Source: Candidatus Poribacteria bacterium (GTDB taxonomy: Bacteria > Poribacteria > WGA-4E > PCPOR2b). From it: a stretch of DNA of 64,000 nucleotides. Location of the stretch: the NCBI GenBank assembly GCA_022826645.1, contig JAJDUM010000030.1:1-64000 (forward strand), in the 5' to 3' direction. The translations under genes were made by a program, and so were the position numbers. Below are positions 6,173 through 62,302 of the stretch, piece after piece. The stretch's first letter is position 1; each line of letters begins with the position of its first letter. The notes under the pieces were generated by a model, which was not told the origin of the DNA, did no database searches, and was given only the letters and a program-made list of their open reading frames with translations.

Positions 6173-6196
6173 CGAGCACGATACGTTATGGAAGAT

Positions 6197-6315
6197 CGCT
6201 CATGTAAAGAATTAGCGTAACAGAAACCCTAGCGTAGGCGGGGCATCCTGCCCCGCTTCCTTTGTCAAAACCTCAGTTTCTCCGGAATGCTTTGCACTTT
6301 CTTTTTATATGAACC
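6197..6315. repeat. MITE-like family B, copy 1
   Basis: CGCTCATGTAAAG...CTTTTTATATGAACC inverted ends around a GTAGGCGGGGCATCCTGCCCCGC core. Flanks ATGGAAGAT / ATGGAGGAT (8 of 9 match). Confidence 0.65.
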
Positions 6316-6335
6316 ATGGAGGATAGACAACAGAA

Positions 6336-8288: not shown

Positions 8289-8365
8289 CACATGGATCTA
8301 CAGTCCCCCTGATAAGTGGTACATCCCGATTTATCGGGGGCGGGATTTAGGGGGTTAGGAGATTT

Positions 8366-8466
8366 ATGATGAATTCTAAAAATAAATAGACACTTTCGCC
8401 CCTAGTAGGTGCGGTTTCCTAACCGCACCGGTTTGGCGTGTCTCATTAATTCTAAGATCCACTATA
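8366..8466. repeat. Inverted-repeat element family C, copy 1
   Basis: TGATGAATTCTAAAAATAAATAGACAC...GTGTCTCATTAATTCTAAGATCCACTATA with core GTAGGTGCGGTTTCCTAACCGCACC. Confidence 0.65.
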
Positions 8467-18639: not shown

Positions 18640-18730
18640 AGTGTTCTTGCTCTTTCTAGAGAGTGTTTAACAAATTTGCTTCGGGGGGTCGCTGATATTT
18701 TACGGAAGGAATGGTTGGATTAACGTCTTT

Positions 18731-18822
18731 CGCTCATGTTGAGATTTAATGCAAAGAAACCGAGTTTTTTCTTCAAAACTCGGTTTCTCTTCGTGCGTTA
18801 CACTTTACTTTTTACATGAGCC
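18731..18822. repeat. MITE-like family B, copy 2
   Basis: CGCTCATGTTGAG...TTTTTACATGAGCC; perfect 8-bp direct repeat ACGTCTTT at 18723-18730 and 18823-18830. Confidence 0.8.
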
Positions 18823-18829
18823 ACGTCTT

Positions 18830-19261
18830 TTATTCAGGCATATCAATGACCACATACTGCTGATCAACGGACACAGAGTAGGTCTCGGCGGTGTACGGTC
18901 CCTTCTGCAATCCTGACGCCACCGTAGCCCCGTCCTCTACCTCTACCGGGTACTTTCTAACACGCTTCTGTGCTGGGTTCCACCACGACTGACCCGTTTT
19001 GATATCAAACTCCCAACCGTGCCAGACACAGCGCAAGATCTCACCTTTACGGGTGTATCTGTATTCACCGGGCACATCGGACTCCAGAAGACCTGTCAGG
19101 CGTCCCTCGCACAAAGGTGCTCCTTGATGGGGACAGATGTTCCGCACGGCATAAAACTCACCATCAATATTAAAAACGCCGAGTGACCGTCCCTCAAGTT
19201 CGACGATTTTACGTTCACCCGGCGGAATTTCATCCACAGTTGCAACTACATGTTTTGCCAT
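18830..19261 (-). CDS. Rieske [2Fe-2S] domain protein
   Basis: CPHQGAPLCEG and CVWHGWEFDIKTG Rieske motifs; likely start MAKHVVATVDEIPPGE. Confidence 0.92.
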   Translation of the reverse strand: MAKHVVATVDEIPPGERKIVELEGRSLGVFNIDGEFYAVRNICPHQGAPLCEGRLTGLLESDVPGEYRYTRKGEILRCVWHGWEFDIKTGQSWWNPAQKRVRKYPVEVEDGATVASGLQKGPYTAETYSVSVDQQYVVIDMPE

Positions 19262-28740: not shown

Positions 28741-28881
28741 CGCTCATGTAAAGAAATCGTGCGACAGAAACCGATTGAGTTCATTCGTTCACTCGTTCAT
28801 TAATGAACCAATATACTAATGAACAGATGAACAAGTGGCTTTCACGTTTCACCCTTTTTGCACTTTCTTTTGACATGAGTC
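28741..28881. repeat. MITE-like family B, copy 3
   Basis: CGCTCATGTAAAGAAATCGTGCGACAGAAACC...TTTTTGCACTTTCTTTTGACATGAGTC inverted ends. No clear target duplication. Confidence 0.6.
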
Positions 28882-29623
28882 AATCAGCATTCCCCCGCTG
28901 CCGGATGACCTCATACAGCAGGATACCCGCGGCAACCGACACGTTAAGTGATGGAACGTGTCCGAACATCGGGAGGTGGATCAATAGATCACATTTCTCC
29001 CTAACGAGACGACGAAGTCCCTCCGCCTCGTTACCGACGACGAGACAAATCGGTCCTGTCAAATCCCCTTGTGTGTAAGAGGTCGGTGCCGCCTGGTCCG
29101 CGCCGATCACCCAGATGCCAGCCTCCTTGAGGGTTTCAATTGTTCGGGCAAGATTAGTCACTTGAGTAATTGGGACATACTCAGAACTGCCCGCCGAGGC
29201 TTTGTGTGCAGCCGTTGTGATGCCAGCGGCTCGATCCTTTGGAAGGATGAGTCCATCGGCGTTGACGGCATCTGCCGTGCGGATAATTGCCCCGAGATTC
29301 CGGGGATCCTGCACTTGGTCCAGCATAATGAATAGCGGGGGGTGATCCGAGTTTTGCGTGCTTGTAATGAGGCTGGGGAGGTCGATATAGCTGGCAGGAC
29401 TAACAAGAGCGATAACCCCTTGATGAGGGACATCAGCTTCCATCGGATCTAACTCACGGCGTGGTGTGAAATCGCAGCGGATACCATTTTTCTCAGCGAG
29501 CGCGCGGATCTGTCGCAGGCGTGGGTGGTTATTTCCTTGCGCGATAAGAATCCGTTCAATCTCACGGTTGCCGCGGCGTAGGAGTTCCAGTACCGAGTTT
29601 CGACCAACAATTTTATCTTGCAT
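28880..29623 (-). CDS. rlmB: TrmH/SpoU family RNA 2'-O-methyltransferase (RlmB-like)
   Basis: IVGRNSVLELLRRGNREIERILIAQG, LDQVQDPRNLGAIIRTADA, LVVGNEAEGLRRLVREKCD, LNVSVAAGILLYEVIRQR. Confidence 0.9.
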   Translation of the reverse strand: MQDKIVGRNSVLELLRRGNREIERILIAQGNNHPRLRQIRALAEKNGIRCDFTPRRELDPMEADVPHQGVIALVSPASYIDLPSLITSTQNSDHPPLFIMLDQVQDPRNLGAIIRTADAVNADGLILPKDRAAGITTAAHKASAGSSEYVPITQVTNLARTIETLKEAGIWVIGADQAAPTSYTQGDLTGPICLVVGNEAEGLRRLVREKCDLLIHLPMFGHVPSLNVSVAAGILLYEVIRQRGNAD

Positions 29624-36137: not shown

Positions 36138-36224
36138 AGGACTTACGCAGCTAGCCGTAGGCGGGGCATCTTGCCCCGCCCTTAACGCTTTCATCGTGAT
36201 TACACTCTGTTTTTACATGAGCCA
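36138..36224. repeat. Chimeric repeat: family D left end + GTAGGCGGGGC hairpin + family B right end
   Basis: AGGACTTACGCAG...GTAGGCGGGGCATCTTGCCCCGCC...ACACTCTGTTTTTACATGAGCC. Confidence 0.55.
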
Positions 36225-36300
36225 AAATATAGTAAACACGAGAAATAAGGAAACATTTATCAAAGTCCCCCTGATAAGGGGGATTTAGGGGGTTAGGAGA

Positions 36301-60110: not shown

Positions 60111-60554
60111 CGCTTGTGTCTCCTTTTATGCTCGGTTGTTCGATCTTCAGGTCTGTCCAAACTTACCCTCGCGAAAATAGGGACGAAAACAAGGAAATGA
60201 TAGGCGATTCTGAGAAAATAATCAAGGAAAAAATATGGGACCATTTGGTGCGCGATATCACTAGACGCCTCGACATGTGATCGTGACGATCTCTACACCC
60301 ATCGTAGGCGGGGCACCTTGCCCCGCACTGGCGATCTTCCATCGAATTACAACACCTCGTCGTTCAACTGCACAATTCCCATCTAGCTCTGTAAACATAA
60401 GCATGGTTTCTTGTTGACACAGTATCTCAAATGAGGTATGGTAGGGCAAATTGTATACGGTTGAATTTACGGTTTTGTGCGTTGGTGAGGCACATGCCGC
60501 GATAAGGCATTATAGTCTATTTTTGAAAAAGCGATGGATACGACAAAAAAAGGA

Positions 60555-60723
60555 GGCTCATGTAAAAACGGAGTGCAAAACACGAATAGAAACTAAAAAA
60601 CTTTGAATCCCGATCCAACTGTGGGAGGGGCATCCCTGCCCCGATGAGGGGATGACCGTCGGGCTAGGAAGCCCGACCCACAGCGGATTTCAGTTTCTAT
60701 TGCACGATTTCTTAACATGAGCG
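60555..60723. repeat. MITE-like family B, copy 4
   Basis: GGCTCATGTAAAAACGGAGTGCAAAA...TTGCACGATTTCTTAACATGAGCG; perfect 8-bp direct repeat AAAAAGGA at 60547-60554 and 60724-60731. Confidence 0.82.
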
Positions 60724-60739
60724 AAAAAGGAAACGTCCT

Positions 60740-62049: not shown

Positions 62050-62302
62050 ACAACCCGGTAGGTGCGGTTTCTAACCGCACCGAATAGGCGCAGTTTGAAA
62101 TAGCGCCTACCAGACATGAGGAGCGAAAGTGTCTATTTATTTTGGTTCATGTTAAGAATTAGTGCAACAGCAACTGAATCTTCGTAGGGGTTGGGTCCCC
62201 CAACCCTTACGGACTGCGGACGGGGAAACCCCGCCCCTACGATTTCGATTCGCGTTTTGCACTTTCTTTTTACATGAGCTTTTATTTTTATAATTCACTA
62301 TA
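62050..62302. repeat. Family C copy 4, reverse orientation, split by family B copy 5
   Basis: GTAGGTGCGGTTTCTAACCGCACC...GAAAGTGTCTATTTATTTT | B5 | TTTATTTTTATAATTCACTATAA. Confidence 0.6.
62144..62280. repeat. MITE-like family B, copy 5
   Basis: GGTTCATGTTAAGAATTAGTGCAAC...TTTTGCACTTTCTTTTTACATGAGCT; perfect 8-bp direct repeat TTTATTTT at 62136-62143 and 62281-62288. Confidence 0.82.

Follow-up and report, generated by a model that had tools for sequence, protein, structure and literature searches.

Seven groups are distinguished within the IS1595 family of insertion sequences (IS), namely IS1016, ISPna2, ISH4, IS1595, ISSod11, ISNwi, and ISNha5, and an N-terminal zinc ribbon is found in all of them except IS1016. 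Members of the family usually generate target site duplications (TSDs) of 8 bp and contain one transposase gene, with a zinc-finger domain and the DDE_Tnp_IS1595 domain (PMC8101967). Miniature inverted-repeat elements (MITEs) often have only their borders in common with the IS partner (PMC3852290). Among the papers searched, none paired Poribacteria with the term "miniature inverted-repeat".

Here, we describe a family of short elements in a Candidatus Poribacteria bacterium, taking as our starting point a window of 64,000 nucleotides (positions 1 to 64,000 of contig JAJDUM010000030.1). These elements resemble the MITEs of other bacteria and archaea in that they are short and geneless, have IS-derived ends, occur in high copy number, are flanked by TSDs, and are similar to the IS at the borders only; they differ in that many alternative hairpin interiors are found under one end pair. 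Their partner IS resembles the IS1595 family in being an element of about 1 kb (approximately 985 to 1,020 bp) with ends that start with GG, in the zinc ribbon and ISXO2-like transposase of an intact relative from the same order, and in the 8-bp TSDs, here seen on the MITEs. It differs in the Poribacterial end consensus, GGCTCATGT..., and in that the copies in the genus are frameshifted.

Copies in the Window and Their Empty Sites

Five full copies had been predicted in the window, starting at positions 6197, 18731, 28741, 60555, and 62144, and all of them were present at these places. The element at 60555..60723 (minus strand) is a MITE of 169 bp with a hairpin interior, in which the R end, GGCTCATGTAAAAACGGAGTGCAAAAC, is located at 60555 and the L end at 60723. 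It is flanked on both sides by the 8-bp sequence AAAAAGGA (60547..60554 and 60724..60731), exactly as described in the original prediction. Perfect 8-bp repeats had also been proposed for two other copies, and both were recovered: the TSD ACGTCTTT at 18723-18730 and 18823-18830 flanks a member of the 92-bp subfamily (18731..18822, plus strand), and the TSD TTTATTTT at 62136-62143 and 62281-62288 flanks a member of the 137-bp subfamily (62144..62280, plus strand), a length for which there were 12 examples among the collected copies. The near-perfect repeat ATGGA[A/G]GAT was confirmed for the 119-bp copy at 6197..6315 (plus strand) as a 9-bp TSD with one mismatch, ATGGAAGAT at 6188-6196 and ATGGAGGAT at 6316-6324.

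No TSD was recognisable around the fifth copy, which is 141 bp long and located at 28741..28881 (plus strand). The stop codon of a minus-strand ORF at 28880-29623 is apparently formed in part by the right edge of this MITE, which appears to represent a small C-terminal change of the host protein. A sixth copy at 36155..36223 (plus strand) is truncated: it consists of the R half of the 115-bp subfamily, with a match of 93% over positions 47 to 115 of the 115-bp query, and the L end has been lost.

For a comparison of occupied and empty sites, we used OY282444.1, the closed chromosome of an uncultured Poribacteria (5,156,246 bp), which shares synteny with a large part of the window. Three loci in this chromosome were found to match a single copy of the TSD. 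At the locus of the 60555 element, the sequence reads ACGACAAAACAGGAAAATTTCCTATGG and could be aligned without gaps to the joined window flanks with one octamer. At the 18731 locus, OY282444.1 contains GATTCACTTCTTTTATTCGGGCATATC, to be compared with GATTAACGTCTTTTATTCAGGCATATC for the joined window flanks, and at the 6197 locus ATGGAGGAT is present once only. No empty site was identified in OY282444.1 for the copy at 62144, since its intergenic flank is not conserved in that chromosome, and no clean empty site was seen for the copy at 28741 or for a 115-bp copy in stretch L074.

Ends, Target Duplications, and Distribution of the Copies

The genome from which the window was taken, here called G000, has a size of 6.04 Mb in 127 contigs and is 94.4% complete. 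With up to 3 mismatches allowed, 84 L-type and 63 R-type ends were identified, and none with the reversed-pattern control. From the sequence stretches fetched around these end matches we gathered 74 paired copies of 69 to 287 bp, each of which is bounded by the terminal inverted repeats and contains no transposase gene; G000 carries about a hundred short elements of this family. An L end was paired with an R end in 53 of the 54 pairs found with profiles, and both orientations occurred. The sole exception, a 569-bp "element" with two L ends, was discarded as a chance pairing. The two ends differ in sequence (L, NGCTCATGTTAAGAAATNGTGCAACAGAAAC; R, NGCTCATGTAAAAAGAAAGTGCAAAACGCGAA), and the consensus was NGCTCATGTTAAGAAATNGTGCAACAGNAAC for the L end and NGCTCATGTAAAAAGAAAGTGCAAAACGCGAA for the R end, which implies that the element has two distinct ends, as an IS does.

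Both flanks were available for 73 copies. Exact TSDs were identified in 41 of these (36 of 8 bp and 5 of 9 bp), and another 13 copies had an 8- or 9-bp TSD with one mismatch, such that TSDs with at most one mismatch were present in 54 of the 73 copies. Random re-pairing of the left and right flanks yielded a mean of 0.92 and a maximum of 4 in 1,000 rounds at the same threshold. Both this result and the three empty sites described above are in favour of the original prediction. The A+T content of the TSD octamers was 75%, with A/T nearly fixed at both ends. No TSD was found for 15 of the 73 copies, which may be old or rearranged. We also noted that only 3 of the 74 copies interrupted ORFs of at least 120 amino acids, whereas 64% of points drawn at random from these stretches lay within such ORFs. 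This intergenic bias may be due to selection or to target choice, which are inseparable here.

A 25-nt pattern for the L end had 50 to 100 matches in each of six genomes of the genus and 0 to 2 matches in each of 53 further genomes from the family and order; judged by these L-end counts, the MITE family is abundant only in this genus. Five copies of the 115-bp subfamily in G000 were identical to the query and others showed 95% to 99% identity. One subfamily has therefore multiplied recently in this genome. The best identities to the same subfamily were 98% in G003, 92% in G002, 90% in G004, and 84% in G005, and there was no full-length match among those listed for G001.

An IS1595-family Element with the Same Ends

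An autonomous IS with the same terminal inverted repeats had been suggested as a target for searches, and we identified such an element of the IS1595 family, the copies of which are broken in the genus. On contig 25 of G000, two such ends face each other at a distance of 985 bp and enclose transposase reading frames, the C-terminal part of which matches PF12762 (DDE_Tnp_IS1595). A copy with the same ends and 94% DNA identity was found on contig 124 in the congener G002. Their R end, CTCATGTAAAAACAGAGTGCA, and that of the 115-bp MITE subfamily agree at every position over 21 nt. Elsewhere in the order, other genera contain related elements of 982 to 1,021 bp whose ends are built alike, GGCTCATGTAAAAAGTAAGTGC / GGCTCATGTCAAGAGTAAGTGC.

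An intact transposase of 319 amino acids, encoded by a single ORF with one such end upstream, was identified in G029 (L118). It matches both PF12762 and PF12760 above the cutoffs (26.9 bits for PF12760, with a cutoff of 25.4), as well as the NCBIfam model NF033547 for IS1595 family transposases (96 bits, with a cutoff of 75). The transposase in L141 also has a match to PF12762. The zinc ribbon PF12760 was detected at E < 0.001 neither in L141 nor in the N-terminal ORF of the G000 copy.

The reading frame in the G000 and G002 copies is shifted by a run of seven A residues, as compared with six in the related copy in G007, and the G000 copy contains a further frameshift near the 3′ end. It was observed that the frame-shifting run, within GGGGAAAAAAAGTG (L113 and L114), is conserved in two species, which could be explained by shared decay or by transcriptional slippage. 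Another observation concerns the G002 copy, in which the stretch corresponding to this second frameshift is occupied by a small palindrome, CTCCGATTCATCGGAG, instead of the coding sequence that G000 has retained there (L114, approximately 1100-1120).

The full-length IS copies that were inspected, including those in G000 and G002, had no recognisable TSD. Among the matches obtained, there was no competent transposase with these ends in the genus, the frames in G000 and G002 being broken; the MITE family may therefore be dormant here, or the source IS may be located in the part of the genome that is missing from the 94.4% complete assembly. Two other candidates in G000 were rejected. The second IS1595 match (contig 11, 22554-22823) corresponds to part of a diverged transposase, with no matching ends noticed in the surrounding stretch, and the convergent CTCATG-like matches at 64584 and 66058 on contig 5 are poor ends with no transposase-like ORF.

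Mobilization of the Elements

We are almost certain that these elements, designated family B in the original prediction, are MITEs of an IS1595-family element, that is, geneless elements of approximately 70 to 290 bp with ends of approximately 25 to 30 bp that would be recognised by an IS1595 transposase acting in trans. The elements share their ends, pair L with R, are flanked by TSDs and have empty counterparts, and the IS with the same ends encodes an IS1595 transposase. We infer that the mover was this IS1595 transposase rather than another, and that an intact source copy existed when the MITEs moved. The transposase would bind one L and one R end of the MITE in trans and presumably cut at these ends. 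Insertion into AT-rich intergenic DNA would then proceed by a staggered cut of 8 bp, or sometimes 9 bp, which would become the target duplication.

Neither 8-bp TSDs nor ends starting with GG are unique to IS1595, as both are also seen outside this family, and the MITEs could in principle have been moved by a transposase of another family with 8-bp TSDs, such as IS6, ISL3, or IS66. However, wherever a transposase was identified in elements with such L and R ends, in the genus or across the order, it was of the IS1595 family, which makes such a mover very improbable. Even less credible is that the copies are hairpin terminators or regulatory RNA hairpins that are alike through shared function and not through transposition. 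The copies are indeed intergenic and palindromic, with predicted folding energies between -33 and -75 kcal/mol among those in the window, but the TSDs are far above chance, the orthologous loci contain clean empty sites, identical copies are located at unrelated loci, and the ends are those of an IS. The view put forward in the original prediction, that the elements are non-autonomous transposons and not just hairpin terminators, is thereby upheld, and a secondary role of the MITE hairpins as terminators is possible. REPIN-like solo repeats moved by a REP-associated (RAYT/Y1) transposase are likewise short, palindromic, and intergenic, but this explanation is the least tenable of all given that TSDs were found, an 8-bp target duplication being the signature of a staggered-cut DDE enzyme and not of Y1, and that the ends match a DDE-family IS.

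As MITEs of an IS1595-family element, the copies are ordinary in kind: they constitute a newly found, real, and well-supported IS1595-associated family in Poribacteria.

Interiors and Nested Mini-hairpins

The interiors of the copies had been described as unrelated, which is correct for the five copies in the window but not for the genome as a whole, where the interiors form recurring subfamilies that are assembled from a few hairpin modules. A 141-bp copy on contig 69 (L065, 60195-60335) corresponds to the 115-bp form with an insert of 26 bp that begins with CCCCGATAAATCGGG. Similarly, the copies of 176 bp (L041, contig 31, 25164-25339), 197 bp (L039, contig 30, 65973-66169), and 207 bp (L076, contig 94, 21197-21403) correspond to the 156-bp form with an addition of 20, 41, or 51 bp, respectively, made up of CCCGATGAATCGGGACAGG-like units and located exactly between AAT and CGGG. 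The mini-hairpin CCCGATNNATCGGGACAGG is seen as clean insertions of 20 to 51 bp that distinguish otherwise near-identical MITEs, and it lies inside the loop of another hairpin like itself.

In G000, CCCGATNNATCGGGACAGG was present in 100 exact copies and in 136 copies at up to one mismatch, with 0 for the reversed control. The corresponding numbers elsewhere were 96 in G003, 6 in G001, and 0 to 3 in each of the 19 genomes surveyed from outside the genus. No empty site for the mini-hairpin could be aligned between the G000 and G001 stretches. Precise insertion, template-switch copying, and slippage are all possible origins, and we know of no mover or enzyme for this sequence. Our tentative suggestion, which we hold to be somewhat less probable than its negation, is that the MITEs serve as traps that expose a mobile mini-hairpin of approximately 20 bp, which may enter the loops of palindromes precisely, its own included, with no obvious duplication or known enzyme, the interiors thus being rebuilt from hairpin modules.

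The mini-hairpins, and not the MITEs, bring to mind the small dispersed repeats (SDR) of cyanobacteria, the units of which are approximately 20 to 27 bp long and inserted within other repeats; the sequence found here, CCCGATNNATCGGGACAGG, is a different one. The SDR are mentioned in PMC3116915.

Two other observations were made on hairpins. The interior hairpin loops in copies of 137 to 207 bp (L083, L100, and L035, as compared with 62144-62280) occur in both orientations, TCC/GGA and AAA/TTT, and look as if they have been inverted (TTGGGTCCCCCAA / TTGGGGGACCCAA and GGGGAAACCCC / GGGGTTTCCCC). At 8290-8370 in the window, a CCCGATTTATCGGGG hairpin splits another repeat (AGTCCCCCTGATAAG...ATTTAGGGGGTTAGG), and the same repeat is unbroken at 36267.

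Implications

With these results, the Poribacteria, a candidate phylum represented by uncultured genomes, gain a MITE family that has been verified and for which the IS partner is identified, and the copies are usable as insertion markers between congeners. The nested mini-hairpins are the more novel part of the finding, and would bear on the question of how hairpins of approximately 20 bp that encode no transposase are able to spread.
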